A stretch of 57,299 bases of DNA, from NCBI GenBank assembly GCA_945872285.1, contig CAMBZR010000011.1, positions 1-57,299 of the forward strand, read 5' to 3'. The stretch comes from Bordetella parapertussis. Its GTDB lineage: Bacteria > Pseudomonadota > Gammaproteobacteria > Burkholderiales > Burkholderiaceae_B. The translations under genes and the position numbers were made by a program. Shown here piece after piece: positions 31,274-48,047 of this stretch (position 1 is the stretch's first letter; each line of letters starts with the position of its first letter). The notes beneath the pieces are model-generated. The model saw nothing but the letters and a program-made list of their open reading frames with translations. It had not been told where the DNA came from and did no database searches.

Positions 31274-31441
31274 CTTGAACCCTTTCAGTGTGAACAGAAG
31301 TCACCCATGGTAAAGCCAGAATCGAGCCCCCGCAATACGAAGCGGTGGATACAAGGGTTATACCCAATACGCGCAACGCTGAGTCCTTCGTCTTTCACGG
31401 TTATCCTTGCATACACTGAACTTGAATCTTCGGAGACTATC

Positions 31442-32410: not shown

Positions 32411-32415
32411 TTCAG

Positions 32416-33390
32416 CTACGACAACAAGCCCTCTGACTGAAGCAGCGCTCGTGCAGCTTGCACTTCATCCGACGCCGCACGATACAAGGGGGGGCGCACC
32501 GCCCCACCTACCATTCCAAACATCTCAGTAATCGCCTTGGTCAAGGCAACGTTGTGCTGACCTTTGGCTAAGAACTTGCTATGCAATTGATTAGCGATGC
32601 GCACGATATGTTGCAGCGGCTGCCGAGCAGCCTCATAGTCGCCGGCCTCAATGGCCGCCATAAACTCAGCGCAATAGGGTTTAGCCTTCGACTGCATGTA
32701 CAGCGGACGAGACGAGCCAAATAAAAACTTCGGCATAATCGCGGGACCAAAGGCAGCCAGGCCGTAAAGATGATATTCCTCGAGCGGACAACTAATCGGC
32801 AGCAGATGTCCGGCAGCGGCAAGCATGGCCGAATACTTATCTAAGCTTAAAGCCGCCTCTTTGACCAAACAAATGGTGTCAATGCCAGCCAAGCGCACCA
32901 TCTCTGCTGGCGTGATGTAGTAGCCAAGCTCAGAAAGAGTTGAGCTATATACACAGATGCCGATATCCACTGCGTTAGCCAAGTTCTGATAGTAATCAAA
33001 CACGCCATCGGCAGAGCGCGGGCCATAATAAGGCGGCCAACACATCACTAAGTCAGCACCTGATGCCTGAGCATGTCGGGCTAACTCGATCGAGTCTTTA
33101 TAAGACGTATGTGAAACGCCCGCAATAATAGGAACACGACCCGCGTTCGCCTCGATCATCGTATCCGTCACACGCTTACGCTCGTCCATGGTGAGGGTCC
33201 AAAACTCTTGATAGACCGAGCCCAAATACAAACCTCGTGCACCGGGCAAGCCAATCAAATGATCGACATTGTGTCGTAGCCCAGAATAATCAATTTCTAG
33301 ATCATTTTTAAAGGGAGTCGTGGTTGTCACAACATACCCGCTCAAGGTGTTGCGCGTCCATTGTTTTGCAGCGGTTCTTCTGTAATGCAT
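32416..33390 (-). CDS. Dihydrodipicolinate synthase family (DapA/NanA-like) lyase
   Basis: A 324-residue TIM-barrel protein of the class I aldolase DapA family. The Schiff-base Lys is in ICLVKEAAL near residue 176, and a Tyr is placed before it in ICVYSSTLSE. The normal GTTGE proton-relay motif is GSVYQE here, with neither Thr, so it is not a standard DapA, NanA or KDG aldolase. It probably cleaves or forms another 2-oxo acid. It follows a minus-strand Bug gene by 53 bases and likely shares its transcript. Confidence 0.87.
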   Translation of the reverse strand: MHYRRTAAKQWTRNTLSGYVVTTTTPFKNDLEIDYSGLRHNVDHLIGLPGARGLYLGSVYQEFWTLTMDERKRVTDTMIEANAGRVPIIAGVSHTSYKDSIELARHAQASGADLVMCWPPYYGPRSADGVFDYYQNLANAVDIGICVYSSTLSELGYYITPAEMVRLAGIDTICLVKEAALSLDKYSAMLAAAGHLLPISCPLEEYHLYGLAAFGPAIMPKFLFGSSRPLYMQSKAKPYCAEFMAAIEAGDYEAARQPLQHIVRIANQLHSKFLAKGQHNVALTKAITEMFGMVGGAVRPPLYRAASDEVQAARALLQSEGLLS

Positions 33391-33443
33391 ATCAAGTCCC
33401 TATCGCGCTTACCAGACGATCCCTCAAGTGAAGCTTCGTTGAG

Positions 33444-34430
33444 CTAATCAATTTTAATGTTGCTCTCGGTCACGACGCGATGCCACATCAGTCGCTCGGC
33501 TTTGATGACTTGCCCAAAAAATGCGGCGTCTTTACCTAAGGGTTCAAGACCACGTTTCAAAAAGTCTTTTTTAACCTCCGAATCATTCACAATTGCCGTG
33601 AACTCTTTTGATAATCGATTCACAATTGCGTCAGGAGTACCAGACGGTGCTAAAACACCATACCATCCCTCGACCACAAAATTACTCAGGCCACTTTCGG
33701 CTACTGTTGGCAAGTCTGGAGCCGCGGGTGAGCGTACTTTGCTACTGATGGCCAAGGCTCGAATCTTGCCAGCCTCGACCTGTGGCATCACCAAGGTCAT
33801 CGAATCAAACACGACAGCCAAACGTCCACCGATCAAATCGGTCATGGCAGGCGCAGCGCCTTTATATGGGACGTGCACCATTTGAATGTCTGCCTGCCGC
33901 ATCAACAATTCCATCGCTAAATGTGCAGTCGAGGCATTGCCAGCAGAGCCATAACTTAGGCCGCCAGTTTTTTGTTTTGCCAACGCGATAAATTCGGCAA
34001 GTGTTTTGGCAGGCACCTGCGCATTGACTGCCAACAGCAACGGATAACTTGTCAATAAACTTACCGGAGTCAGATCACGGACCGGATCGTAGGTCAGATT
34101 TTTATACAACGATGGATTCACCACGATGGGGCCTGGAAAAGCTAGCAACAAGGTGTACCCATCGGGTGCCGCCCGCACCACGGCTTCAACACCAATGTTG
34201 CCTCCCGCCCCTGGTTTGTTATCAACCACCACCGGCACACCCAAGCGCTCTTGCAATTTCTGGGCCATTTGGCGCGCGACGATATCAGTCATACCACTCG
34301 CGGCGATCGGCGCGACCAAACGAATTGATTTCGAGGGAAAGTCTTGGGCGCTCACCTGACCGTAAGCGAAAGCGCCGATCAGACTACCCACAACGACCAT
34401 TAACAGTTTGTTTCTGAGATCACGCAGCAT
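33444..34430 (-). CDS. Bug-family solute-binding protein
   Basis: Bug receptor of 328 residues with a Sec-type signal ending near VSA-QD. The ligand loop is APIAASGMTDIVAR, lacking the usual VPY and the Gly-Gly pair, so the pocket edge differs from the other copies. Further marks are YGSAGNASTAHLAME and HVPYKGAAPAMTDLIGG. It is first in a two-gene minus-strand unit with the DapA-like lyase. Upstream is a divergent SDR and a 22-bp inverted repeat. Confidence 0.94.
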   Translation of the reverse strand: MLRDLRNKLLMVVVGSLIGAFAYGQVSAQDFPSKSIRLVAPIAASGMTDIVARQMAQKLQERLGVPVVVDNKPGAGGNIGVEAVVRAAPDGYTLLLAFPGPIVVNPSLYKNLTYDPVRDLTPVSLLTSYPLLLAVNAQVPAKTLAEFIALAKQKTGGLSYGSAGNASTAHLAMELLMRQADIQMVHVPYKGAAPAMTDLIGGRLAVVFDSMTLVMPQVEAGKIRALAISSKVRSPAAPDLPTVAESGLSNFVVEGWYGVLAPSGTPDAIVNRLSKEFTAIVNDSEVKKDFLKRGLEPLGKDAAFFGQVIKAERLMWHRVVTESNIKID

Positions 34431-34501
34431 TTATTTATCTCCGAGCGTCTAGGGCATTTGCGCCCTTTGCAGCAATGTCTATTTATCGTTATTGGTGACG
34501 C

Positions 34502-34523
34502 TTAGTAGTATTATTTCTACTAA
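34502..34523. promoter_or_regulatory. 22-bp inverted repeat, candidate operator
   Basis: TTAGTAG-N8-CTACTAA is a perfect 7-bp inverted repeat in the 164-base gap between the divergent Bug gene (minus) and SDR gene (plus). The half-site distance of one and a half turns fits a dimeric regulator. The surrounding bases are AT-rich, like a promoter. No regulator gene is nearby. Confidence 0.5.
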
Positions 34524-34594
34524 TTTACAACAAAGCGAAGCACCACAGTCGGTTTAAGAAAATTTAGGCCAATTCCCCGAGTGACTTTCAGCAA

Positions 34595-35398
34595 ATGAGA
34601 CCCATTATGCAAACCAACGCAAGCTTACCGCCACCGCAGGGCAGCTACCCGTCAGGGGTTGCCGTCGTGATTGGCGGAAGCGGCGGGATCGGCAAAGGCA
34701 TTTGCCTTGCACTCGCAGCGAAAGGTGCTCAGGTGGCGCTAAGCTATCGCTCAAGTGCTCAAGCCGCGCAACAAACCGTAGATGAGATTGAGCAACTTGG
34801 CCAAGCAGCCGAAGCGTTTGCGCTCGAGCTCTCTTCGTTTGAACAGGTTCAAGCTGCGTTAACAGATATTAAAAACCGTTACCACTGCATTCACACTCTG
34901 GTCTTTGCTGCGGGTGCTGACATCACCATGACCTTCGTCGGCAATATCGATCACGCCGAGTGGCATCGCACCATTAATAATGAACTCAATGGATTTTTTC
35001 ACGTGATCAAGGTCGTCTTGCCAATGATGCGGCAAACCGGTGGCGGCTCCATCGTCGCCATTACAACAGCCGGACTCGATCGTCACCCACCCTTAGATAT
35101 CTTATCGACCGCACCGAAAGCGGGGATCGAGGCTTTGGTCAGGGGTATCGCTCGAGAAGAGGGGCGCTACAACATTCGAGCAAACTGCGTTGCCCCAGGC
35201 GTGGTGGATGGTGGGTTGTTTGATCGCCTAAAACCTCAGGTCAAACCAGAATTTATTGAGGCAATGAAACGCAACACGGCCCTTAAACGCTTTGGCACCA
35301 TCGAAGAAATTGCCGGGGTCGCCGCATTTTTGACAACACCTGCTGCTGCTTATGTCACCGGCCAGCATCTTTGCGTGGATGGTGGCTACTCAGTATGA
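34595..35398 (+). CDS. SDR-fold protein lacking the catalytic Tyr
   Basis: A 267-residue short-chain dehydrogenase/reductase-fold protein. The dinucleotide motif GGSGGIGKG is intact, and the C-terminus ends YVTGQHLCVDGGYSV as usual. At the active site YxxxK reads S-T-A-P-K (nt 35104-35118), so Tyr is Ser, and the catalytic Ser position reads ITTAG. Normal hydride-transfer chemistry is doubtful; it may act as a modified reductase or a binding protein. Its stop overlaps the next start (ATGA), which couples it to a CoA ligase. A second ATG at 34607 is an alternative start. Confidence 0.87.
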   Translation: MRPIMQTNASLPPPQGSYPSGVAVVIGGSGGIGKGICLALAAKGAQVALSYRSSAQAAQQTVDEIEQLGQAAEAFALELSSFEQVQAALTDIKNRYHCIHTLVFAAGADITMTFVGNIDHAEWHRTINNELNGFFHVIKVVLPMMRQTGGGSIVAITTAGLDRHPPLDILSTAPKAGIEALVRGIAREEGRYNIRANCVAPGVVDGGLFDRLKPQVKPEFIEAMKRNTALKRFGTIEEIAGVAAFLTTPAAAYVTGQHLCVDGGYSV

Positions 35399-37086
35399 AC
35401 GAGCCATTGCTGTCCGAGATCGATGGCCTCACGCTTGGCCAGGCACTCAGACGATCAGGTGCGCGATGGCCCGATCAAGATTTTTTTAAAACAGCAGACG
35501 TCTCAGTTAGTTTTTTACAATTTGATCAGCGGGTTGATCAATTTTCTCGAGCACTATTAGCGCTTGGACTCAAACGACAGGATCACGTCGCAGTGTGGCT
35601 TGGTAACTCGCTTGAATGGGCGCTCACTTTTTGTGCCTGCGCACGAATCGGCGCCGTGTTAGTGCCAATCAATACTCGTTACACCGCCTCAGAGGCTGGC
35701 TATATTTTGGAGCAATCCGATGCCAAGGCCTTGGTCATGACCTCGGTGCTTTACGGGCTAAATTATCTAGAGATGCTAGAACAGATCGCACCCAGCCTCG
35801 CAGAGGCTCAGCACGATCTGCTCGAATTAAAAGAGCTACCCGCACTCAAGCGGGTCATCCTGAGCGAGCCTGAACACGCAACAATGCAGGCGATCTCAGT
35901 CGGCCCCCTACCTGTATATGCTGTCCATCTTGAAGCTCTCATGGAGAAAGCGCAAGCTCACGAACAACTTCAAGCCGCCGAGCGAGCTGTCAGCGTTGAA
36001 GATGTTTTATTGATTTGCTACACCTCGGGCACAACAGGAAAACCTAAAGGCGTGATGCACAACCACCGCGTGCTCAAACAAGCCACTCGCGTAGGCTTAG
36101 CGCTTGACCTCAAACCTGGCGGCCGGATTCTTGGACATATGCCGCTGTACCACGTAGCCGGTTTATATATGGGTTTTGTCCCGGCGCTCACGCTTGGCGC
36201 TTGCTTTGTCAATATGCCGCAATGGGAGACCACCCACGCACTCGATTTGCTCGAACACGAGCGCATCACCGCCTTCGGTGGGATCCCCACGCATTTTGTC
36301 GATTTGGTCAACCACCCCTCTGTCACGCAGCGAGATCTATCGAGCGTCGAAAATGCCTGGATTGGTGGCTCGCCTGTCATGCAAGCAACGTTTGAGAAAT
36401 TTAAAACGGTGCTCGGTCTTAAACAACTCATGTCTACCTACGGCATGACTGAAAATACCATTTCAACAAGTTTTAATCGTCTGTCAGATCCGATCGAAGT
36501 GTGCTGCCAAAATCGTGCGCCGATTCTGGGCCCGAGCGAAGTCAAAATCATCGACCCCGTTACGCAAAATGAGCAGCCTCGCGGTTCAGTTGGTGAGATT
36601 TGGTGTCGTGGTGAAACCGTCATGCTGGGCTATTACAAAAATCCCGAAGCGACGCGTGCCACCATCACCCCAGAGGGTTGGCTTAAAACCGGGGATCTAG
36701 GGCGTTTTGACGACGAGGGTTTTTTGTCTGTAACTGGCCGTTTGAAAGATATGTATAAAACAGGCGGTACAAACGTGTACCCAGCGGAAGTTGAACAGTT
36801 TCTTGTGCAACACCCTGCGATTGCAATCGTCGCAATCGTGGGTGTGCCTGATACACGGTTAGATGAAGTGGGCTTTGCCTTTGTTCAGACACACCCCGGC
36901 ATGCAAATGACTCATGCTGAGTTACGTGCGTTTTGCAAAGGCAAGTTAGCCGATTACAAAGTCCCGCGTTATTTAAAGTTGCTCGCAGCGATTCCGCGCA
37001 CCGCGACCGGAAAAATTCAGCGCTCAGCGCTGCTAGAACTCGCCGGCGCTGAACTCACCCAAACGAATCACTCGATACCGGGATAG
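35395..37086 (+). CDS. AMP-forming acyl-CoA synthetase (long-chain/benzoate type)
   Basis: A 563-residue ligase. I use the ATG at 35395 because it overlaps the SDR stop as ATGA; the longer frame from 35371 lies inside the SDR gene. Motifs are TSGTTGKPKG near residue 212, YGMTEN (adenine site), KTGDLGRFDDEGFLSVTGR, and the Lys of RTATGKIQR near the end. It activates an organic acid to its CoA thioester. Coupled to the Tyr-less SDR it probably begins an acyl-CoA pathway. Its end overlaps the minus-strand racemase-like gene by 19 bases. Confidence 0.92.
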   Translation: MNEPLLSEIDGLTLGQALRRSGARWPDQDFFKTADVSVSFLQFDQRVDQFSRALLALGLKRQDHVAVWLGNSLEWALTFCACARIGAVLVPINTRYTASEAGYILEQSDAKALVMTSVLYGLNYLEMLEQIAPSLAEAQHDLLELKELPALKRVILSEPEHATMQAISVGPLPVYAVHLEALMEKAQAHEQLQAAERAVSVEDVLLICYTSGTTGKPKGVMHNHRVLKQATRVGLALDLKPGGRILGHMPLYHVAGLYMGFVPALTLGACFVNMPQWETTHALDLLEHERITAFGGIPTHFVDLVNHPSVTQRDLSSVENAWIGGSPVMQATFEKFKTVLGLKQLMSTYGMTENTISTSFNRLSDPIEVCCQNRAPILGPSEVKIIDPVTQNEQPRGSVGEIWCRGETVMLGYYKNPEATRATITPEGWLKTGDLGRFDDEGFLSVTGRLKDMYKTGGTNVYPAEVEQFLVQHPAIAIVAIVGVPDTRLDEVGFAFVQTHPGMQMTHAELRAFCKGKLADYKVPRYLKLLAAIPRTATGKIQRSALLELAGAELTQTNHSIPG

Positions 37087-37880
37087 ACATCTGCCCCGTA
37101 GACCCTTCGTACCTCTTTAAGCAACTCGCCGCGCGGCGGCGCATAAGTCATACGCTTACTAATGAAGTGACCCGTGAGGCGTTGAATTTTGACGGCGGTT
37201 TCGCCCATCTTGGTCAAGGCCACGGTACCATTCAAAATCGGCACACCATCCACATCGTGAATATTGGCATGGGCCAGCATTGCCATTACCACGCCACCGG
37301 CGGCGATAATCACCTCGGCACCTTTGTCGATGCCACGCCGCGCAGCTTGACGAAACTCTTCAAAAATTGCCTCACGCGCCACGGCATGTTCTGGCGCCTC
37401 TGAAAACCCCGGGGCCAAATCAGGCAGATTGTGAACCTTCATCGCCTCAAGAGAAGCCATTCTGGGATAAAACCCGTAGCGATGAACGTTTTCTAAGACA
37501 CGCGGCGTAAATTTTGGATTGACCGTCACGAGCGTATAAAGCGTGCCCATCATGCACGCAATACTCAACGTCGATTCGCATAGCCCCAACACCGGGATTG
37601 TCAATAGTTCGCGCAACTCTCTAATTCCGGGATCGGTGATATTGCCCAGTAAGAAACCGTCATAGCCTTCTTTTTGTGCTCTCAGGCCATTCGCAATCAC
37701 CTCGGCGACGTCAACGTATTCGGGATAGCGGTACTGGTCCGCCACCCCGCCGCCCCGTTTGAGCCCATGCGCCTCTATTTGCGTGTCAGGATCGGCAGCA
37801 TGAACGATCTGTTTATTGAGCGCTGCGCCGTAGTTACCGAACGCATCAAAACGCGAAAAACTCTGATACCAAAGTCGCAT
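37068..37880 (-). CDS. Asp/Glu/hydantoin racemase family protein without the canonical cysteines
   Basis: A 270-residue protein of the Asp/Glu racemase superfamily. I start at the ATG at 37880, giving MRLWYQSFSRFD, which matches the start MRIWYQS of the homologue at 42682; an upstream ATG at 37976 would add 32 unlikely residues. In hydantoin racemases two Cys act as acid and base. Here the first site reads LLGNITDPG and the second IIAAGGVVM, so both are lost. A Cys is found in ESTLSIACMMG, shared with 42682. Function is therefore unlikely to be two-base racemisation. It ends inside the CoA ligase 3' end. Confidence 0.82.
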   Translation of the reverse strand: MRLWYQSFSRFDAFGNYGAALNKQIVHAADPDTQIEAHGLKRGGGVADQYRYPEYVDVAEVIANGLRAQKEGYDGFLLGNITDPGIRELRELLTIPVLGLCESTLSIACMMGTLYTLVTVNPKFTPRVLENVHRYGFYPRMASLEAMKVHNLPDLAPGFSEAPEHAVAREAIFEEFRQAARRGIDKGAEVIIAAGGVVMAMLAHANIHDVDGVPILNGTVALTKMGETAVKIQRLTGHFISKRMTYAPPRGELLKEVRRVYGADVYPGIE

Positions 37881-37903
37881 GTCAACACTCACAGTGAATG
37901 AAG

Positions 37904-38311
37904 CTAGCCGGGCTGTCTCGGCGCGCCGGGCAATCCGGGTATGGTACCTAACCAAGGCATGGCAGAGTCGCACCAAATTTGCTTTTTTGGACTCAGCTGA
38001 CCGCGTTGCGCCAAGGCGCCGATGCGCAAACCAAAAATCTTTTGATCAACTTCGGTGGTGGCATAGATGGATGTGCCGCAATTCGAGCAGAAAGCCTGCA
38101 AGCGCTTGGCTCCGCTCTCGGCAGTTTTCAAGTACGTCTTGGGCTCGCCCGCCAATATTCTAAAGTTTTCTTTTTTCGCTGGAACATTCACGCGAAACGC
38201 TGAGCCGGTAATCGTCTGACAATCGGTGCAGTGACAAATCGCGACAGCTGCAGGATCGATCACTGCCTCGTAGCGAATTTGCCCACAGTGACAGGCGCCG
38301 TTTACGTTCAT
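37904..38311 (-). CDS. GFA-family zinc-binding protein
   Basis: A 135-residue protein of the GFA (glutathione-dependent formaldehyde-activating-like) fold. Zinc ligands are visible in ACHCGQIRYE at the N-terminus, ICHCTDCQ near residue 31, and FCSNCGTSIY near residue 74. Most members have no proven reaction with formaldehyde. It lies upstream of the racemase-like gene on the same strand, 23 bases from its start, so the two may be cotranscribed. Confidence 0.92.
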   Translation of the reverse strand: MNVNGACHCGQIRYEAVIDPAAVAICHCTDCQTITGSAFRVNVPAKKENFRILAGEPKTYLKTAESGAKRLQAFCSNCGTSIYATTEVDQKIFGLRIGALAQRGQLSPKKQIWCDSAMPWLGTIPGLPGAPRQPG

Positions 38312-38559
38312 GGGTGCTCCACTTTGACAGGTCTATGGCCAAAAAATGCGGCAGCGCAACAATGTCGCGGCTTACTTTACTTACTACTTACTAACGAGAG
38401 CGTACAACATTTTAAACAAACCGCTGTCCACTTTCTTGCACCAAGAGTCAGCCGAGTCGCGAGCGGATGCGTTGCGGCGCCTGAAGCCGCGCTGTACAGT
38501 GCAGCTTATATCGCGTGCTAGAGCAACATTTTTGAGGCGCGCTTGATTCCTTGACCTTC

Positions 38560-39816
38560 ATGGCAAAAATGACAAACACTGCTGCAACAAACAAAGAACA
38601 ATCTGCCGACCCGGTCAGCGCCCAGGCTGCGACAATTCCGATTTTGGTGTCTTTGAGTTTCTGTCATTTTCTCAATGACTTAATTCAATCCTTGATCCCG
38701 GCACTTTATCCCTTACTCAAAAGCGAGTTCAGCCTAGACTTCACACAGATCGGCATCATCACTCTCGCCTTTCAATTGACCGCCTCGCTTTTGCAACCGA
38801 CGGTAGGCTTTTATACAGATAAAAACCCCATGCCCTTTTCACTCGCAATTGGCATGGGTTCGACGCTGATCGGTTTGCTGTTGCTCGCAGTCGCGCCAAG
38901 TTACGCAATGATTTTGATTGCAGCCGGCCTCATCGGTACAGGCTCTGCCATCTTTCACCCAGAGGCTTCACGCGTCGCGCGCATGGCCTCTGGCGGAAAA
39001 TTTGGCTCGGCACAAGCGTTCTTTCAGGTTGGTGGAAACGTCGGCCAAGCTGTCGGCCCACTGCTCGCAGCGTTTATTGTGTTGCCGCACGGTCAAACGG
39101 CAATCGCCTGGGTGTCTTTGGCTGCACTAATCGCGATCGTGTTCTTAACACGCATCGGAAAATGGTATGGCGCTCACATCAAGCCCAGCAACAAATCAAC
39201 GATAACGGCGAGCGCAAACCCAGCATCAGATTTACCGCGGGCCCGCATGCTATTTTTAATCACAATATTGATGCTGTTACTGTTTTCAAAAAATGTCTAC
39301 AGTGCGAGCCTGACCTCTTTCTTTACTTTTTATTTGATCGAGCGTTTTGATCTACCGGTGCAAGCCGCTCAGGTCCAGCTCTTTATCTTTATGGCCGCGA
39401 TCGCGATTGGCACCCTGATCGGCGGGGCACTCACAGATCGCCTGGGCCGCAGGCCCATGATTTGGATTTCGATCCTGGGCACACTGCCATTTACCCTTGC
39501 CTTGCCCTACGCGGATCTATTCTGGACTGGCGTGTTAACGATCATTATCGGCTTGCTCATGGCGTCCGCGTTTCCGGCAATTCTGGTCTTTGCCCATGAG
39601 GTGATGCCCGGTCGCGTCGGTTTTGTGTCCGGCATGTTCTTCGGCTTTTCGTTTGGCCTAGGCGGTCTCGGGGCAGCGGTGATGGGATGGCTAGCCGACT
39701 TGAACGGGATGAGCTTCGTTTATCAGCTCTGTTCGTTTTTACCCATTCTTGGACTCGTCGCCTGTTTTTTACCAGATATGGTCGCTGAGCGACGCAAATA
39801 CCAGCAAGCGCATTAA
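38560..39816 (+). CDS. MFS transporter, fosmidomycin-resistance (Fsr)-like
   Basis: A 418-residue integral membrane protein with about 12 hydrophobic segments. The first segment holds SLSFCHFLNDLIQSLIPALYP, which in parts matches the Fsr subgroup of drug/solute exporters, and the cytoplasmic loop contains DRLGRRPM. The start is uncertain: ATG at 38560 or 38569, or TTG at 38551, none with a strong ribosome site. It is divergent from the GFA gene and followed 31 bases later by an isocitrate-lyase-like gene. It may export or import an organic acid of that unit. Confidence 0.9.
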   Translation: MAKMTNTAATNKEQSADPVSAQAATIPILVSLSFCHFLNDLIQSLIPALYPLLKSEFSLDFTQIGIITLAFQLTASLLQPTVGFYTDKNPMPFSLAIGMGSTLIGLLLLAVAPSYAMILIAAGLIGTGSAIFHPEASRVARMASGGKFGSAQAFFQVGGNVGQAVGPLLAAFIVLPHGQTAIAWVSLAALIAIVFLTRIGKWYGAHIKPSNKSTITASANPASDLPRARMLFLITILMLLLFSKNVYSASLTSFFTFYLIERFDLPVQAAQVQLFIFMAAIAIGTLIGGALTDRLGRRPMIWISILGTLPFTLALPYADLFWTGVLTIIIGLLMASAFPAILVFAHEVMPGRVGFVSGMFFGFSFGLGGLGAAVMGWLADLNGMSFVYQLCSFLPILGLVACFLPDMVAERRKYQQAH

Positions 39817-39847
39817 TTCACCTTACTAATCACTGTTGAGACGATCT

Positions 39848-40741
39848 ATGAATCCACGTACCGCAAAACTTAGAGCACTCATTGCCGCAGGCGGCCCCGG
39901 AATCGTACCTGGTGCGACCGACTGCTTCACGGCAAAATTGATTGAACAAGCTGGTTTTCCAGCTGTTTATGTTACGGGTGGGGGCACTGCAAATACGTAC
40001 TTGGGTGGACCAGATATTGGTTTAATCACACTAAATGAACTGGCCAGTCAGGTCGAAAGAATTTCAGATGCCGTCTCAGTGCCCGTCATTGCCGATTGTG
40101 ATACTGGCTTTGGAGGCGTAGCCAACGTCAAACGCACCATCAAGTTGTACGAACGGATCGGGGCTGCCGGTTTGCATATCGAAGATCAGGTGTTTCCCAA
40201 ACGCTGCGGGCACTTCGAAGGTAAGTCAGTCGCACCGGTCGAAGAAATGTTGTATCGCTTACAAGCCGCCCTGGATGCGCGTACCGATCCGAACTTTGTC
40301 ATCATCGCCCGTACAGATGCACGTGGCCCCGAAGGCTTAGACAAAGCCATCGAGCGCGCACACGCGTATCGCGAAATCGGCGCTGACATGGTGTTCGTCG
40401 AAGCCCCTAACAGCCTCGAAGAATTGCAGCGCATCAGCAAAGAGTTCAAGGGGACTCCGATGGTCGCCAACATGATCGAACGCAGCCGCACGCCACTTGT
40501 GCCCGAGAAAGAATTACTTGCCATGGGTTTTAACGTCATTCTCTATGCAAACGCCGCGCTGTACCTTGGCTCCTTCGCCATCAAACAAGGGCTCGAGGTG
40601 CTGCGTAAAGAGGGCACCACCGAAAGCATGCTCGATCGCATGACTTCCTTCCAAGAACGACAAAAATTAGTTGGGCTTGATAAGCTCGATGCAGCTGAGC
40701 GCGATTTAGTGGCACGGGTCGATGCGCGTCGCAAAAAATAA
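39848..40741 (+). CDS. Isocitrate lyase/PEP mutase superfamily lyase
   Basis: A 297-residue enzyme of the PrpB/dimethylmalate lyase/oxaloacetate decarboxylase group. DCDTGFGG supplies metal ligands, and KRCGHFEGK keeps the catalytic Cys. Start at the ATG at 39848. It is a clear relative of the lyase at 12464 but differs widely, so it is not a recent duplicate. It ends two bases before the YiiX-like gene and follows the MFS gene, which suggests one plus-strand transcript of 38.5-41.5 kb. Confidence 0.9.
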   Translation: MNPRTAKLRALIAAGGPGIVPGATDCFTAKLIEQAGFPAVYVTGGGTANTYLGGPDIGLITLNELASQVERISDAVSVPVIADCDTGFGGVANVKRTIKLYERIGAAGLHIEDQVFPKRCGHFEGKSVAPVEEMLYRLQAALDARTDPNFVIIARTDARGPEGLDKAIERAHAYREIGADMVFVEAPNSLEELQRISKEFKGTPMVANMIERSRTPLVPEKELLAMGFNVILYANAALYLGSFAIKQGLEVLRKEGTTESMLDRMTSFQERQKLVGLDKLDAAERDLVARVDARRKK

Positions 40742-40743
40742 CG

Positions 40744-41496
40744 ATGAACCAGCTTAGGCTATCACTTGGTAAATGGCTGGCCACCTATCTCACCGAAGAA
40801 ATACAGGTTGGCTCGACCGCGCCGCCCTCTAATCCACTCCATCTACAAGAAACGTTGCGTCCCGGCGACGTTCTTCTTATGGAGGGGCGCACAAGAATAA
40901 GCTCTGCCATCAAATATTTAACACAGTCGACCTGGTCACACGCTGCGCTATTTATTGGGTCCGGTTATCTTGGTGATCGTGCACCTGAAGATCACTGCTT
41001 GATCGAAGCCGACGCCGTTCGGGGCGTCTGCAGCACTAGCCTCGAACGTTTTTCACACTTACACACCAGAATCTGTCGACCGATCGGTTTGAGCAGCACA
41101 GAGTGCGAGCAAGTGATTCAGTTTGCGCTTTCGCAACTTGGGCACCAATATGACCTGCGCAATGTGTTTGATCTAGCCCGCTATCTGTTCCCGACGCCAC
41201 CGATCCCAACTCGGTTTCGACGCAAGTTGCTTGCGCTTGGTAGCGGCGATCCGACTCGCGCCATTTGCTCGACCCTCATTGCACAGGCATTCGAAACGAT
41301 TCACTACCCAATCATTGCTCGCGACAAAAACGCTTTGTTATACACGTCACATTCGTCATTTGGACCACCAAATTTTGAGCCCAAGCACTTTAGTCTTTTA
41401 ACGCCGCGCGATTTTGATGTTTCACCCTACTTCCAAATCATCAAGCCAACACTAGAAGGCGGGTTTAATTTTCACGACCTCGAGTGGGCGCAATAG
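40744..41496 (+). CDS. YiiX-like permuted NlpC/P60 cysteine hydrolase
   Basis: A 250-residue protein of the circularly permuted papain-like group (YiiX/YebB). The catalytic His is in TWSHAALFIG near residue 64, and the Cys in RAICSTLIAQAF near residue 179, in the inverted order expected for permuted members. LRPGDVLLMEG is the typical lead-in strand. These hydrolases act on amide or ester bonds, often lipid- or wall-linked. There is no signal peptide. Its start lies two bases after the lyase stop. The link of a cysteine hydrolase with a lyase is unexplained. Confidence 0.83.
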   Translation: MNQLRLSLGKWLATYLTEEIQVGSTAPPSNPLHLQETLRPGDVLLMEGRTRISSAIKYLTQSTWSHAALFIGSGYLGDRAPEDHCLIEADAVRGVCSTSLERFSHLHTRICRPIGLSSTECEQVIQFALSQLGHQYDLRNVFDLARYLFPTPPIPTRFRRKLLALGSGDPTRAICSTLIAQAFETIHYPIIARDKNALLYTSHSSFGPPNFEPKHFSLLTPRDFDVSPYFQIIKPTLEGGFNFHDLEWAQ

Positions 41497-41503
41497 GCAT
41501 TGA

Positions 41504-41530
41504 GCGCTTTCTAGCGCGTATATTTTTTCT
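41504..41530 (+). terminator. Possible terminator after the YiiX-like gene
   Basis: GCGCT-TTCT-AGCGC is a perfect 5-bp stem eight bases after the YiiX-like stop, followed by GTATATTTTTTCT. The stem is short, so this is a weak call. Confidence 0.35.
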
Positions 41531-41559
41531 CTAATACTCTTTTAGTCAAATAGCACTGC

Positions 41560-42540
41560 TCACTCGGTCGTTTTAAGACCAATTTCCTTAATGAGTTTTC
41601 CCCATTTGCTCAGATCAGCACTCAGCAAATCCCTCAAAGCCTCAGGCGTACCGCCCCCCGGAATCAACCCTTGTCGGGCTAGGCGTTCGCGAATTTCAGG
41701 CATCTTCAGCACCACATTGATGCTCTCGTTGAGCTTCAGAATGACATTGTTTGGCGTGCCCGTCGGGGCAAAAATACCAAACCAGCCAACCACCTCGAAC
41801 CCTGGTAAGCCTGATTCATCAACGGTTGGCACATCAGGGATCATCTCGACGCGGTGCTTAGAGGTCACAGCAAGCGCGCGTAACTTACCAGACTTCAAAT
41901 GCGGTAACGCAGCAGGAATCGTTGAAAAATACATCTGCACACGCCCCGCGACCGTATCGATCACTGAAGAGCCACCGCCTTTATAGTTCACGCTCTCCAT
42001 CTTAATATCTGCCATCTTCTTGAAAAGCTCACCCGCCAAATGTGCGGTGGTGCCGTTGCCTGAGTTGGCATAGTTAAGTTGACCCGGCTGTTTCTTTGCT
42101 AAGGCAATGAACTCTTGCACATTATTGACGGGTAACTGAGGATTGACCACCATGATCAGCGGCGCGGCACAGGCCAGAATAATGGGCGATAGATCTTTGA
42201 CCGGATCGTAAGACAGCTTTGAATAAAGCCAGGGACTCATTGGCAATGAGGTGATTGGCATTACCAAGGTGTAGCCGTCAGGTGTTGCTCGAACGCCCTG
42301 CTCAACGCCTATATTGCCCGCCGCGCCCGGTCGATTATCCACAACCAACGACTGCCCGAGCAATTCGCTCAGTTTGAGCCCAATTGTGCGCGCCGTAAAG
42401 TCAGTGCCACCACCCGCCTCTGAAGGCACAATCAAATGAATCGCACGATTGGGATAATTGCTTGCCTGAGCCCAACTCGAACCGATTTTAGACAGGGATG
42501 CCGCCGCCAAGCTACCCAACAATAATTGCCTTTTATTCAT
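41560..42540 (-). CDS. Bug-family solute-binding protein
   Basis: Bug receptor of 326 residues with a N-terminal NKRQLLLGSLAAASL segment (Sec or weak Tat signal) and cleavage near SWA-QA. The ligand loop is VPSEAGGGTDFTAR; the Glu in this loop is unique among the copies here. It is divergent from the racemase-like gene at 42682, with an inverted repeat between them, so the two are probably controlled together. Confidence 0.95.
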   Translation of the reverse strand: MNKRQLLLGSLAAASLSKIGSSWAQASNYPNRAIHLIVPSEAGGGTDFTARTIGLKLSELLGQSLVVDNRPGAAGNIGVEQGVRATPDGYTLVMPITSLPMSPWLYSKLSYDPVKDLSPIILACAAPLIMVVNPQLPVNNVQEFIALAKKQPGQLNYANSGNGTTAHLAGELFKKMADIKMESVNYKGGGSSVIDTVAGRVQMYFSTIPAALPHLKSGKLRALAVTSKHRVEMIPDVPTVDESGLPGFEVVGWFGIFAPTGTPNNVILKLNESINVVLKMPEIRERLARQGLIPGGGTPEALRDLLSADLSKWGKLIKEIGLKTTE

Positions 42541-42595
42541 GTTTTGTCTCCACTGCTTTTTATTTTTGAAATAGAGTCATGTGAGTTTACGAGAG

Positions 42596-42618
42596 ATTTT
42601 GCCTCTAAAGATCAAAAT
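42596..42618. promoter_or_regulatory. Inverted repeat, candidate operator
   Basis: ATTTTG-N11-CAAAAT is a perfect 6-bp inverted repeat in the 141-base gap between the divergent Bug gene and the racemase-like gene. The T-N11-A layout resembles LysR-type regulator boxes. No LysR gene is present nearby. Confidence 0.4.
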
Positions 42619-42636
42619 ATCGACACATTCAGCCGA

Positions 42637-42642
42637 TATAAT
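42637..42642 (+). promoter_or_regulatory. Candidate -10 box for the racemase-like operon
   Basis: TATAAT, a perfect consensus -10, lies 39 bases before the start codon at 42682. No good -35 sits at 16-18 bases upstream, which suggests an activator-dependent promoter. The start itself has a strong AGGAG at 42672-42676. Confidence 0.4.
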
Positions 42643-42681
42643 CAATACAAACGAAAAACATAAAGCCACTCAGGAGACATC

Positions 42682-43509
42682 ATGGGCATGCGCATATGGT
42701 ATCAATCCATGACTCAACTCGCGACGTTAACCAACTATCGCAAGGCACTTGAAGAACACGCAAAAAAATATTGCTCTGACGGCACGAAAATTGTTTTTAA
42801 CGGCGTCTCTGAAGACAACTATCACGGCCGGATGCCCGCCGAAGTCTTGCAATACAGCTATGCAAAACTGATCCTCCAAACCGAAGTGATCGACATTTGC
42901 CGTGCCGCCGAAAAAAATAAATTTGATGCAGTGATTCTTGGCAGCTTTAGTGAACCCTTTTTACCAGAGATCAGATCTTTGCTGAACATTCCGGTGATTT
43001 CAATGCCTGAATGCACGCTTTTAGTCGCCTGTTCAATGGCCGAGAAATTTGCACTGACCACCCTCGCACCCGCAAACGTCAAACGCGTCAAGGCGCTTAT
43101 TAAACGCCACGGTATTGAAAGCCGTGTATCGGGCTATTACTCGCTTGCACACCCTGTTGATGAAGATATTTTGAATGTGGCGCTTAAAAAGCCCAAACAG
43201 GTTATCACTGATTTTTTAGCAACCGCAGAACAAGCCAAAGCAGACGGCGCGGATCTCATTGTGCCGGCAGAAGGCGTTTTAAACTTGATCATTGGGCGAA
43301 GCAATATCAACCCGATCGGTCGGCTCTCAGTGCTCGACTGTGTATCGACCTCATTTTTGTATGCCGAAATGATGATCAATATGCAACGTAGACTCGGTAT
43401 CGGGATTGGACGCATGGGTAGCTATGCGATGCCTCCGGCAGACTTGCTGGCCGAACTTGATGCGGTCACGCAAGCAAAAGCAAGCGCCAAAGTAAAAACA
43501 AAAAAATAA
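42682..43509 (+). CDS. Asp/Glu/hydantoin racemase family protein without the canonical cysteines
   Basis: A 275-residue homologue of the protein at 37068. It opens MGMRIWYQSMTQ and has the superfamily core FDAVILGSFSEPF and GADLIVPAEGVLNLIIG. At the positions of the two catalytic Cys stand Ser (LGSFS) and Ala/Glu (PAEGV). A Cys in PECTLLVACSM is shared with the 37068 protein. It is followed 26 bases later by another member of the same superfamily, also Cys-less at the active site. A lyase, isomerase or hydrolase activity with different residues, possibly the Glu, is imaginable. Confidence 0.82.
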   Translation: MGMRIWYQSMTQLATLTNYRKALEEHAKKYCSDGTKIVFNGVSEDNYHGRMPAEVLQYSYAKLILQTEVIDICRAAEKNKFDAVILGSFSEPFLPEIRSLLNIPVISMPECTLLVACSMAEKFALTTLAPANVKRVKALIKRHGIESRVSGYYSLAHPVDEDILNVALKKPKQVITDFLATAEQAKADGADLIVPAEGVLNLIIGRSNINPIGRLSVLDCVSTSFLYAEMMINMQRRLGIGIGRMGSYAMPPADLLAELDAVTQAKASAKVKTKK

Positions 43510-43535
43510 ACGACTGATAAAAAAGGATTGATGTT

Positions 43536-44255
43536 ATGGTGGGTTGGCGCGCAAAACTTGGATTTCTGGTACCGGCTGGGACACCCACCGTCGAACCAGA
43601 GATGTTTGAGATGGCCCCAAAGGGGGTATCTGTGCACTTTGGTCGGATGATTTCTCGCGGTGCCGACGGCACACTGAACGGCATCGAAGCGCGTATCGCG
43701 ACACAGATCGAACATCTGGATGAATCTGTTGAGATGCTATCGATGATTAAACCTGACGTCATTGCGCTGGCGCATACGGCCACGAGCTATTACCTCGGAC
43801 GCGAAAAAGAAGCGGACCTAACCAAACGTTTAGAAGATCGTTTCGGCCTGCACTTCATCACCGCCTTTGGCAGCGTCATCGCTGCACTCAACGCACTAGG
43901 CATAAAAAAAGTTGCGCTAGGAACGCCTTATGACGAAAATCTGACGATGCAAGGAAAACAAAACCTTGAAAGCTACGGCATCGAAGTCGTCAACTTTGAT
44001 TGGCTACGCAATGTTCGCAGCATCTTTGAAGAACCACCAAACCGAGCTTATCGCTTAGGGAAGTCGGTCGACGTCCCTCAAGCGCAAGCCATTTTTTTAA
44101 GTGGCGTCGGAATGCCAACTGTGTCTATTGTCGGCGCCCTCGAACAAGATTTAGGCAAGCCCGTGATCTCAAGTTCAAGCGCCATGATGTGGAACGCATT
44201 GCGCTTGGCTGGAGTTGCGCCGGTATTGCCGGGATACGGGTCACTATTGGCCTAG
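43536..44255 (+). CDS. Maleate isomerase/arylmalonate decarboxylase family protein with no cysteine
   Basis: A 239-residue member of the maleate cis-trans isomerase/arylmalonate decarboxylase group. N-terminal LGFLVPAGTPTVEPEMFEM and the C-terminal ALEQDLGKPVISSSSAMMW match the family. Maleate isomerase uses two Cys and arylmalonate decarboxylase one. Here the first site reads ALAHTATSYY and the second IFLSGVGMPT, and the entire protein contains no Cys. Known mechanisms of the family are therefore excluded. The ATG at 43536 has AAAAGGA upstream. It lies in the middle of a racemase-like, Bug, dioxygenase unit. Confidence 0.85.
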   Translation: MVGWRAKLGFLVPAGTPTVEPEMFEMAPKGVSVHFGRMISRGADGTLNGIEARIATQIEHLDESVEMLSMIKPDVIALAHTATSYYLGREKEADLTKRLEDRFGLHFITAFGSVIAALNALGIKKVALGTPYDENLTMQGKQNLESYGIEVVNFDWLRNVRSIFEEPPNRAYRLGKSVDVPQAQAIFLSGVGMPTVSIVGALEQDLGKPVISSSSAMMWNALRLAGVAPVLPGYGSLLA

Positions 44256-44314
44256 ATATCAGAGTGCCACGTTGCAGACCTTATACACGAACTGATGATG
44301 ACAAGAGGTGCACC

Positions 44315-45277
44315 TTGAACCGATTACTCGCGCTACTGTTAACGCTACTAAGCCTGTCCGTAAGTTCTGCGCAGGCGCAAGAGTTTCCGAATCGACCTGT
44401 GCGCATCATCACGCCCTATGCGGCGGGCGGTGGCATCGATCTTCTAACGCGTACCGTCGCGCAACGCTTGGGACAGGTCTGGAATCAACAGGTGATCGTT
44501 GAAAATCGTCCGGGCGCAGGTGCCACAATCGGCTACGCCGCAGCCGCAAAGGCCCTACCCGACGGTTATACGCTGGTGGCTGCAGCAAACCCCCTCGGTA
44601 TTGGTCCGGTCGTTTATGCGAACCTCCCATATGATGCTCACCGCGACTTTATGCCGATCGGTTTACTGGCCACAGCTCCTGAGGTCTTAACGGTCAACGC
44701 CGCCTCGCCCTATCGCAGCGTTGCCGACCTTGTGAATGCCGCAAAACAGACACCTCGTCCCCAAAACTTCGGTTCCGCCGGTAGCGGTACCCTAGCGCAC
44801 TTGGCAGCTGAGTCGTTCAATACTGCTGCAAACCTCAATGCCCAACATGTTGCTTACAAAGGCAGCTCGTCCGCTCTTGCAGACTTACTTGGTGGACAAA
44901 TCGACTGGATTTTTGATTCCCCAGCTGCGATTATGTCGAATTTACAGGCAGGTAAGCTTCGTGCCTTGGCCAGCGCTGCGCCAGAGCGATCGCCTCAACT
45001 GCCTAACGTTCCCACGATGACTGAAGCAGGGTTTCCAAATTTAGATTTTAGAATTTGGCTTGGTTTAATGGCGCCTGCCGGCACACCGACAACTGTGATC
45101 ACCCAAATTGAAACTGCAATCGCAACGAGCATGAAAGACTCTGCCTTGCGAAAAACGCTCGAAGGACAGGGGTGGGATATTGCGGGGACCAGCGCCAAAA
45201 GTTTCGAAGACTTTCTCAAGACAGAACTACCGAAACTCGCCCAATCCGCACGCGCTGCCAAAGTCAAAGCCGACTAA
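44315..45277 (+). CDS. Bug-family solute-binding protein, TTG start
   Basis: Bug receptor of 320 residues. I choose the TTG at 44315, with AAGAGGTG just upstream, because a signal peptide begins there (LNRLLALLLTLLSLSVS, cleavage near AQA-QE). A longer frame from an ATG at 44189 lies inside the preceding gene. The ligand loop is TPYAAGGGIDLLTR, with Ile before the Asp. It is located between the Cys-less isomerase homologue and a dioxygenase. Confidence 0.9.
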   Translation: MNRLLALLLTLLSLSVSSAQAQEFPNRPVRIITPYAAGGGIDLLTRTVAQRLGQVWNQQVIVENRPGAGATIGYAAAAKALPDGYTLVAAANPLGIGPVVYANLPYDAHRDFMPIGLLATAPEVLTVNAASPYRSVADLVNAAKQTPRPQNFGSAGSGTLAHLAAESFNTAANLNAQHVAYKGSSSALADLLGGQIDWIFDSPAAIMSNLQAGKLRALASAAPERSPQLPNVPTMTEAGFPNLDFRIWLGLMAPAGTPTTVITQIETAIATSMKDSALRKTLEGQGWDIAGTSAKSFEDFLKTELPKLAQSARAAKVKAD

Positions 45278-45312
45278 TCGCTGCACTTCTCGAGGCTCAG
45301 GAGCACACGCTG

Positions 45313-46152
45313 ATGTATAAAAAAATAAAAGTTCAACCGCTCGCCGGCGCCTTGGGCGCCGAGGTCTTTGGCATCGACCTTTCAGCCGAGCTCGACCCAG
45401 CGACCTTTGCAGAAGTTCGCCAGGCGCATCTCGAGCATCTCGTGATTTTCTTTCGCGAGCAAAATGCTTCAGATCTCGACTTAGCCCGTTTTGCCCGAAA
45501 TTTTGGCGAACTCGCCATGCTCCCACCGCATCGTCAAGCGCCAGGAAATTTTCCTGAGTTGCTGGTCATCGACAAGAAGCCTGAGGGCACGCTGGTGTTT
45601 GGCTGGGAATGGCATACCGATACCAGTCACTTAGAGATTCCTCCGCTGGGCTCGGTGTTGGCCGCACGTATCTTGCCCTCTGTGGGTGGCGATACACTCT
45701 TTGCCAATCAGTACCTGGCGTATGACACACTCTCTGCGGGCATGAAGGCTATGCTGAAGGATCTGCGCGCGGTCCACTCGAATGGCCGGATTTTGGCCTC
45801 TCTGGCCGTCGACGATATCCTGCCACCCGGGCAAGACTGCGCTGCGCAAGCAACACTCTCGTCGGTACACCCCGTGGTTCGAACCCATCCGGACACTGAT
45901 AAAAAAGCGCTTTACGTCAATGTGATGCACACCGAGCGGTTTGAAAATATGACCGTTACCGAAAGTGCGCCACTTCTAAAGTATTTATATGACCACGCAA
46001 CGCGCCCTGAATTCAGCTGCCGGTTTCGCTGGCAACCCGGGTCGATTGCCTTTTGGGACAATCGTTGCTGCCAACATCTGGCACTGGCCGACTATCCTGG
46101 ACAACGCCGTTTAATGCACCGCGTTCAAATTCGCGGCTCTACGCCCGTTTAA
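45313..46152 (+). CDS. TauD/TfdA family Fe(II)/2-oxoglutarate dioxygenase
   Basis: A 279-residue dioxygenase. Start at the ATG at 45313 with CAGGAG upstream; a longer frame from 45172 overlaps the Bug gene. The iron site is HTDTSH (His and Asp, about residues 101-104) plus the distal His in CCQHLALADY; the 2-oxoglutarate Arg follows in QRRLMHRV. The N-terminus LAGALGAEVFGIDLS is characteristic. It hydroxylates a substrate, often releasing sulfite, an aldehyde or glyoxylate. It is flanked by Bug genes on both sides. Confidence 0.93.
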   Translation: MYKKIKVQPLAGALGAEVFGIDLSAELDPATFAEVRQAHLEHLVIFFREQNASDLDLARFARNFGELAMLPPHRQAPGNFPELLVIDKKPEGTLVFGWEWHTDTSHLEIPPLGSVLAARILPSVGGDTLFANQYLAYDTLSAGMKAMLKDLRAVHSNGRILASLAVDDILPPGQDCAAQATLSSVHPVVRTHPDTDKKALYVNVMHTERFENMTVTESAPLLKYLYDHATRPEFSCRFRWQPGSIAFWDNRCCQHLALADYPGQRRLMHRVQIRGSTPV

Positions 46153-46170
46153 AAAATTTAAACATACATC

Positions 46171-47157
46171 ATGAAAAACTTTCTCAGATTACGCTTTTTT
46201 GCTTTGGCCTTCACCTGTTCACTGTGCTTGCTATGCACTTTTGGGATGACTGAAAGCTTTGCACAAACCTATCCCACCCGAACCATTCGTTTGATTGTGC
46301 CCTACGCCGCAGGCGGTGGCACCGACGTGCTGGGCAGAGCATTGGCACAAAAACTCACTGAGGCGTTGGGTCAATCAGTCATCGTTGAAAACCGCCCGGG
46401 TGCCGACGGCATGATTGGCTCTGAAGTCGTTGCCCGAGCCACCGCCGATGGTTACACGCTGCTCTTTAACTCGAGTAGCCACGGCATCAACCCATCGATT
46501 CATCCTAATATTAATTTTGACACCATGCGAGACCTGCGTTGTATTAGTCAAACGGCATCGCAGCAAATGATCTTGGTAGTTCATCCCTCGTTACCAGTTC
46601 ATTCGGTCAAAGAACTCATTGCCTATGCAAAAGCCAATCCCAACGTCTTAAATTTTTCGTCCTCATCCAAGGCAACCCAATTACCAATGGAACTGTTTAG
46701 CTGGATGGCAGACATACGCATGACTAACATCCTGTACAAAGGCTCAGGCCCTGCAACAACAGATTTACTCGCAGGACGAATTCAAACAAGTTTCGGTGGA
46801 GCCGCTTCAGTCGTTCCACACATCAATGCCGGCAAGCTGCGCGCACTCGCGATTGGCGATAATCGGCGCTCGCCACTCACGCCTGACATTCCAACACTTG
46901 CCGAAGAGGGCTTGCCAGATTTTTATTCTGTCCTGTGGTCGGCAATGTTTGCCCCTTCGGGTACGCCACCTGCCATCATTAACCGATTAAATGCGGAGCT
47001 GGTCCGTATCTTGAAAGACCCTCAATTCAAAGCAAAGACCGCACAGCAAGGGTTCGAGAACGATGGCACAACATCGCAAGCCTGCGACAGCTTCGTTCAA
47101 CGCGAAATTACAAAATGGGCTGATGCGATCAAACAAGCGGGGATCAAGCCCGAGTGA
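46171..47157 (+). CDS. Bug-family solute-binding protein
   Basis: Bug receptor of 328 residues with a long Sec signal rich in Phe and Cys (FFALAFTCSLCLLCTFG), cleavage near SFA-QT. The ligand loop is VPYAAGGGTDVLGR. It follows the dioxygenase by 18 bases with no visible Shine-Dalgarno site, so translation may depend on the upstream gene. A frame beginning at 46053 inside the dioxygenase gene is not coding. Confidence 0.95.
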   Translation: MKNFLRLRFFALAFTCSLCLLCTFGMTESFAQTYPTRTIRLIVPYAAGGGTDVLGRALAQKLTEALGQSVIVENRPGADGMIGSEVVARATADGYTLLFNSSSHGINPSIHPNINFDTMRDLRCISQTASQQMILVVHPSLPVHSVKELIAYAKANPNVLNFSSSSKATQLPMELFSWMADIRMTNILYKGSGPATTDLLAGRIQTSFGGAASVVPHINAGKLRALAIGDNRRSPLTPDIPTLAEEGLPDFYSVLWSAMFAPSGTPPAIINRLNAELVRILKDPQFKAKTAQQGFENDGTTSQACDSFVQREITKWADAIKQAGIKPE

Positions 47158-47279
47158 TCATTTGTGCGCCGCAACAAATCTTTAGACTGCGTCCTGAATC
47201 CCTAGGCAAAGAATCTGTTGCGAGACCCGTGCAACGGTAGTAATCTCATCGACACAAATCATTTTCAAAGAGGCTCGTC

Positions 47280-48047
47280 ATGTCCGTGCACAATCTAAAT
47301 ATCAAACAACAGTCTGACGCGGTTCAGAAAGCCAAAATTCATCTTGCTGCTGCAAATCGTCTTGCCGTGCTCGACGACCTGCATGAAGGCATTGACAATC
47401 ACTTTACGATGATCGTACCCGGACGCAAAGACCAGTATCTGATTTCGCCTTTTGGCATGCATTGGTCAGAAGCGCGCGCAAGCGACATGATGATCTTTAA
47501 CGAAAAAGGCGAAACGCTTGAGGGTGTTGGCGTCGTTGAGCGTTCAGCGATGTGTATTCACGCACCGGTGCACCGCATCGCGGGTGCCAATGTCGTCTTG
47601 CATACCCATCAACACTGGGCGCTGACTCTCAATCTGCTACAAAATAACCGGTTGTTACCAGCCAGCCAGTCAGCAGCGTTTTTTATGGGCATCACAGGCT
47701 ATGACGATACCTACACTGGTGTGGCTGACGGCCTGAGCGAAGGCGAGCGTCTCGCCCATCAAGTCGGCAACAAAAAAGTACTCTTCATGAAAAATCATGG
47801 CGTACTCGTGGTGGGTGACACGGTGGCTGAGGCCTACAAACGCTTGTACAAACTCGAGCGCGTCTGTCGTGCGCAAGTGCTTGCCATGAGCACTGGTCAA
47901 CCGATTCAAGTGTTGTCAGATGAAGTTGTGCATGCCGTTCAAAATCCAGCACCAGGAGACAGTCATTCACGCCAAGAGCGCGATGAATTGTTCTTCGATG
48001 CCATGATGCGTGTTTTAGATCGCGAATTGCCAGGCTACGCCGACTAA
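47280..48047 (+). CDS. Class II aldolase/adducin family protein
   Basis: A 255-residue zinc enzyme of the class II aldolase/adducin group. Zinc ligands are in VLHTHQHW near residue 105 and in FMKNHGVLVV; EGIDNHFTMIVPG near residue 36 is the substrate-side loop. Family members cleave sugar phosphates or decarboxylate; this one resembles those annotated with unknown substrates in catabolic operons. AAGAGG lies upstream of the ATG. It ends the plus-strand unit and is convergent with a second dioxygenase. Confidence 0.9.
   Translation: MSVHNLNIKQQSDAVQKAKIHLAAANRLAVLDDLHEGIDNHFTMIVPGRKDQYLISPFGMHWSEARASDMMIFNEKGETLEGVGVVERSAMCIHAPVHRIAGANVVLHTHQHWALTLNLLQNNRLLPASQSAAFFMGITGYDDTYTGVADGLSEGERLAHQVGNKKVLFMKNHGVLVVGDTVAEAYKRLYKLERVCRAQVLAMSTGQPIQVLSDEVVHAVQNPAPGDSHSRQERDELFFDAMMRVLDRELPGYAD

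Follow-up and report, generated by a model that had tools for sequence, protein, structure and literature searches.

In a 57,299-nucleotide contig titled Bordetella parapertussis (CAMBZR010000011.1 of assembly GCA_945872285.1; the whole stretch is called the window here), we identified a gene whose product belongs to the arylmalonate decarboxylase (AMDase) family PF17645 and carries His and Gly at the positions of the two catalytic cysteine (Cys) residues. We see an even chance that this protein is a live, cofactor-free PF17645 enzyme that shares the Asp/Glu racemase fold and has lost both catalytic Cys residues, with His80 as the sole acid/base at the two classical sites and with a one-way reaction on a carboxylate. 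Judged from its sequence, its chemistry is likely to differ from that of known family members, as the first-pass annotation of this DNA had supposed. The Asp/Glu racemase superfamily is the textbook case of paired-Cys catalysis. The relevant passage of a 2025 paper (PMC12661438) states that the two Cys residues are conserved across the superfamily. The gene and its two altered sites are as follows.

43536 to 44255, plus strand: open reading frame (ORF) with ATG start, 239 amino acids (aa), 0 Cys; PF17645 (Amdase) protein of the His/Gly branch, assigned by profile, homologue alignment and tree.
43773 to 43775, plus strand: codon of His80, aligned with Gly74 of AMDase and the first catalytic Cys of maleate isomerase.
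44103 to 44105, plus strand: codon of Gly190, aligned with Cys188 of AMDase and the second catalytic Cys of maleate isomerase.

The sites were placed by alignment with solved AMDase and maleate isomerase chains, and by one alignment in which L011 and L078/L079 represented the two families. We found both motifs quoted in the first-pass annotation, ALAHTATSYY and IFLSGVGMPT, in the product, and the alignments and the Cys count bear out its statement that both sites are changed in a protein free of Cys. The good ribosome site that it reported is AAGGA, 8 nt upstream of the ATG. The window protein scores 94.9 bits against the Pfam PF17645 cut-off of 25.9, and its predicted structure (model predicted local distance difference test, pLDDT, 91.5) has maleate isomerase, AMDase and 4IX1 as best solved matches, so the fold is kept, as had been claimed.

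A homologue search at E <= 0.001 returned 2378 proteins, and conservation was counted over the best 120 of these plus the window protein (121 rows). Position 80 is His in 120/121 rows and position 190 is Gly in all 120 non-gap rows, P0007 having a gap; T81, A82, Y85 and Y132 are present in 121/121. The His80/Gly190 pair is not chance, because it is near-invariant over these rows. Cys stands at position 84 in four of the 121 rows. Counted over the chain outside the two sites, the 120 homologues hold no Cys (56 proteins), one (40), two (17), three (6) or four (1). Because this number varies from 0 to 4, the total absence of Cys from the window protein is incidental and was rejected as the key feature; the conserved feature is the pair of site replacements. 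The oddity described in the first pass is therefore real as to the site changes, but the protein is one of many homologues rather than a lone deviant.

A relaxed or decaying copy that had recently lost its Cys residues would also show none at either site. However, the ratio of nonsynonymous to synonymous substitution rates (dN/dS) between the window gene and eight same-locus relatives is 0.012-0.060, with 0.081 the highest over all pairs, and the same replacement recurs in the best 120 homologues. The gene is under strong purifying selection and is not decaying, as first stated, and decay, to which we give next to no weight, is ruled out by dN/dS and conservation. Neither a Cys kept in the closest relatives (the best 120) nor relaxed selection was found, and the first site holds the invariant His and no nucleophile of a known mechanism.

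Branch markers were obtained by comparing 128 branch rows with 50 other PF17645 representatives. R53 (128/128 versus 1/50), H80 (127/128 versus 1/50), Y85 (128/128 versus 1/50), R170 (128/128 versus 4/50), T137 (124/128 versus 4/50), G190 (127/127 versus 5/50) and G192 (128/128 versus 3/50) mark the branch, while T81 (128/128 and 43/50) and Y132 (128/128 and 40/50) are family-wide. That the branch-specific set is conserved points to a functional site with its own substrate. The missing catalytic residues would also fit a protein with a binding or regulatory role, one that senses or holds a carboxylate without catalysis, and a binding role had been proposed in the first pass. Such a pseudoenzyme seems improbable to us, since the first site has gained one specific, invariant His rather than drifted, the oxyanion-hole Thr and Tyr are kept, and the gene is placed among catabolic genes.

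PF17645 is present in 51/101 relatives, with at most nine copies each, and its representatives show Cys/Cys, Gly/Cys (the AMDase-like L011), Ala/Cys, His/Gly, Ile/Gly and Gly/Gly at the two sites. In a 73-row tree, a branch with support 97/95 sets the 21 His/Gly rows related to the window protein apart from the rest, so the Cys-less relatives of the window protein do group as a clade, a point on which the first pass had wanted a family tree. A single origin of all His/Gly rows was rejected, as L076 is placed elsewhere (approximately unbiased, AU, p 0.009); this PF17645 protein (3719-4492 of L076) lies outside the branch and is also His/Gly (HGHSIHSF / HVGTNLP), an apparent convergence. A constraint grouping all 27 Cys-less rows was not rejected (p 0.209), so several independent double Cys losses are unsupported, and the positions of the long branches L165_6565, L045 and 4IX1 are unsure. 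Further PF17645 subfamilies that are Cys-less at both sites (Ile/Gly, Gly/Gly) were seen in L045, L049, L054, L059 and L063, in L070 and L074, and at 6565-7356 of L165. Cys-less PF17645 proteins are thus already known as sequences and structures, and Cys-lessness alone is not unique, because structure 4IX1 is itself Cys-less at both sites. OpaE was considered as a Cys-less precedent and rejected, its sites being Cys/Cys. Literature searches of open-licence papers found none on the His/Gly branch, which is conserved and apparently unstudied.

In the reaction we propose, the carboxylate would be held by the kept oxyanion-hole residues T81 and Y132, His80 would be the one acid/base that the two classical sites offer, on the face opposite AMDase Cys188, and Gly190 would leave the other face without one. 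The branch-specific R53, Y85 and R170 may provide binding for another group, polar or anionic. Because a single acid/base would be available, a one-way reaction would be expected rather than racemisation or Cys-adduct isomerisation, namely decarboxylation with stereospecific protonation, beta-elimination, or C-C cleavage of a 2-oxo or hydroxy acid. An organic acid is the probable substrate, and a tripartite tricarboxylate transporter (TTT) system might import it. With His80/Gly190, neither the AMDase route nor the maleate isomerase route, as known, would be open. Racemisation by two Cys is disfavoured, as is maleate isomerisation through a Cys adduct, and the protein probably acts on an organic acid without a cofactor, through a mechanism that has yet to be described in the family.

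An ordinary maleate/fumarate-type isomerase, racemase or AMDase, in which another residue replaces Cys and the reaction is unchanged, would fit the shared fold and family, and the database names are maleate isomerase and maleate cis-trans isomerase. However, the window protein stays far under the NCBIfam cut-offs, with 83.6 of 225 bits for AMDase (NF052327) and 79.9 of 318 bits for the ectoine-utilisation protein EutA (TIGR02990), and the isomerase, in the part of PMC12576825 that treats it, proceeds through a Cys adduct and also uses another Cys, neither of which is available here. We consider this explanation unlikely, and names such as maleate isomerase for His/Gly branch proteins become doubtful.

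The surroundings of the gene contain the following features.

37068 to 37880, minus strand: third racemase-superfamily gene (PF01177), whose two catalytic Cys positions hold Asn80 and Ala194; its start was set at an ATG inside a longer ORF.
41560 to 42540, minus strand: divergent TctC receptor upstream.
42682 to 43509, plus strand: adjacent PF01177 racemase-superfamily gene, whose two catalytic Cys positions hold Ser88 and Glu197.
44315 to 45277, plus strand: TctC solute receptor of a TTT; the TTG start is inferred, the longer ORF from 44189 being an over-extension.
45307 to 46152, plus strand: TauD/TfdA-family dioxygenase.
46171 to 47157, plus strand: second TctC receptor.
47280 to 48047, plus strand: class II aldolase/adducin-family protein.

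The His/Gly gene lies 26 bp after the adjacent PF01177 gene and is followed on the same strand by the TctC, TauD, TctC and class II aldolase genes, and no terminator-like sites were listed on the plus strand between 42400 and 48400. The operon claimed in the first pass is borne out as a same-strand gene row with tight spacing. This arrangement raises the possibility of a hetero-oligomer in which the Ser88/Glu197 neighbour and the His80/Gly190 protein would each give part of the missing acid/base pair: the genes are close, both products lack both Cys, and the neighbour lies within 60 bp at 7/9 distinct window-type loci whose flank allows a check. We nevertheless hold it to be very improbable, for the neighbour is absent in L142 and L143 and was found within 3 kb at 0/14 other branch loci (L152 offering only 65 bp of upstream sequence). 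Obligate pairing with the Ser/Glu neighbour was rejected as unsupported, the neighbour being missing at many branch loci. The PF17645 profile gave no match among the neighbours of distant Ser/Glu homologues, where a simple ORF picker dropped several query genes.

TctC occurs within 3 kb at 22/24 distinct branch loci; in L157 it is directly downstream of the branch gene, and in L155 none is in view. A TctC gene is next door to 9/22 branch genes versus 49/207 control genes, in a count made with a simple ORF picker that missed some genes, including the L157 branch gene. The link between TTT and the branch is suggestive only, because TctC is common next to control genes, and by this count TTT association was rejected as proof of substrate. 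Five TctC receptors lie within 30000-48000 of the window (31307, 33444, 41560, 44315 and 46171). In L148, L162 and L163, genes for TctB, TctA, TctC and a fused flavin mononucleotide (FMN)/flavin adenine dinucleotide (FAD)/HbpS-like protein follow; in L163 (12518-14950), where it comes right after TctB, TctA and TctC, this protein is 810 aa long and joins an FMN old-yellow-enzyme domain to a Rossmann part and an HbpS-like domain. In L156 (2751-5669), the row that includes the branch gene also contains two Cys/Cys PF17645 genes and one 234-aa gene that matched nothing in Pfam.

The branch is accessory and patchy in its distribution. In the nearest genus sampled, the branch profile matched at E <= 1e-40 in 23/32 genomes, two of which (G020 and G028) reached only ~150 bits, the level of another subfamily; 21/32 carry the branch, 20 at at least 388 bits and one at 266, where the gene is cut by a contig end. 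The branch was found in G001, G063, G889 and G893 among 399 genomes of the order (at least 384 bits; next best 168), and in G001 only among 369 of the class and 398 of the phylum, two other phylum matches being of Cys-bearing classes (CC, GC); in these three samples scoring covered only the 6-7 top first-look candidates of each genome, so that carriers may have been missed. A plasmid search gave 37 records, all below 60% identity. Public metagenome-assembled genome (MAG) contigs L001 and L007, titled Bordetella parapertussis, hold the locus, as do MAGs named Alcaligenaceae, Methylopumilus and Gammaproteobacteria, and the organism names on these MAGs look unreliable.

The two further superfamily genes that are Cys-less at both sites in the window go unmentioned in the first-pass annotation of the His/Gly gene. 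Glu is found at the second site of the 42682-43509 product in 87/87 non-gap homologues, and the 37068-37880 product, which databases often call allantoin racemase, has Asn in 120/120 and Ala in 119/120 of the homologues listed; the S88/E197 and N80/A194 pairs are each near-invariant among the homologues listed. We tentatively suggest, at somewhat below even chance, that the superfamily holds several Cys-free lineages with new acid/base sets (His/none, Ser/Glu, Asn/none) for one-way cofactor-free chemistry, three of them in the organic-acid catabolic region of this window, and that the His/Gly branch represents, in natural form and with His, the opposite-face AMDase that was engineered with Cys. 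A clade changed from Cys/Cys to His/Gly with fold and oxyanion Thr/Tyr kept would show the fold changing chemistry, and would offer a starting scaffold for opposite-face decarboxylases.

Among known systems, the maleate cis-trans isomerases (2xec/2xed of Nocardia farcinica; 4fq5/4fq7 of Pseudomonas putida) share the fold with the window protein. Their two catalytic Cys residues, numbered 76 and 194 in the N. farcinica enzyme, are replaced here by His80 and Gly190, so that no Cys adduct is possible; one Cys of the isomerase attacks and the second is used too, as outlined in a section of PMC12576825. The best Foldseek match, 4IX1 (the uncharacterised structure of Rhodococcus opacus hypothetical protein OPAG_01669; 31% identity), is Gly/Gly at the two sites; unlike the window protein it has no His at site 1, and it falls outside the clade in the tree, though long-branched. 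Two-base Asp/Glu racemases carry an acid/base (Cys or Thr) on both faces, whereas Gly190 leaves one classical site without such a residue here. According to an extract of PMC8142540, an epimerase with another racemase fold becomes a dehydratase when a Cys is changed to Thr.

AMDase of Bordetella bronchiseptica (EC 4.1.1.76) shares with the window protein the fold, PF17645 and the pseudo-symmetric active site, its oxyanion residues Thr75 and Tyr126 corresponding to T81 and Y132, and TTT genes are reported near AMDases in the relevant portion of PMC4996985. The proton donor Cys188, which protonates the enediolate from one face in the accounts excerpted from PMC12576825 and PMC6563808, is Gly190 here, and Gly74 is His80. 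In the large pocket (P14, P15), P13 is kept and A14 differs, many branch members being PP. Several points weigh against our proposal, in addition to the TctC control count above. Only two of the four dioxyanion-hole residues T75, S76, Y126 and G189 (Table 4, PMC4996985, the table as excerpted) are kept, Ser76 being Ala82 and Gly189 being Val191; most hydrophobic-pocket residues (L40, V43, Y48, V156, M159) seem not to be kept, S40, G49, I54, S162 and I163 standing there in the alignment to L011, which is unsure owing to an insertion in loop 40-50. Because of these changes, AMDase-type ground-state destabilisation in the window protein is doubtful, and the same losses argue that its substrate is no arylmalonate. 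Moreover, the direction of His80 towards the substrate is inferred from alignment alone, and in P0103 position 80 is Tyr. Shifting the Cys to the other side of the AMDase site (G74C/C188G or C188S) gave S-selective, slower enzymes in the corresponding passages of PMC12576825 and PMC6563808, at a 20,000-fold cost for G74C/C188S (PMC12576825) and a 25-65-fold cost on alkenyl substrates for a shifted-Cys variant (PMC6563808). These engineered enzymes (G74C/C188G, and G74C/C188S, 3ixl) resemble the window protein in placing the catalytic residue on the position-74 face, and G74C/C188G also has Gly at 188; unlike them, the window protein's moved residue is His rather than Cys, natural, and invariant in its clade. 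By this analogy, the His/Gly branch is best read as a natural His analogue of the engineered opposite-face AMDase G74C/C188G.
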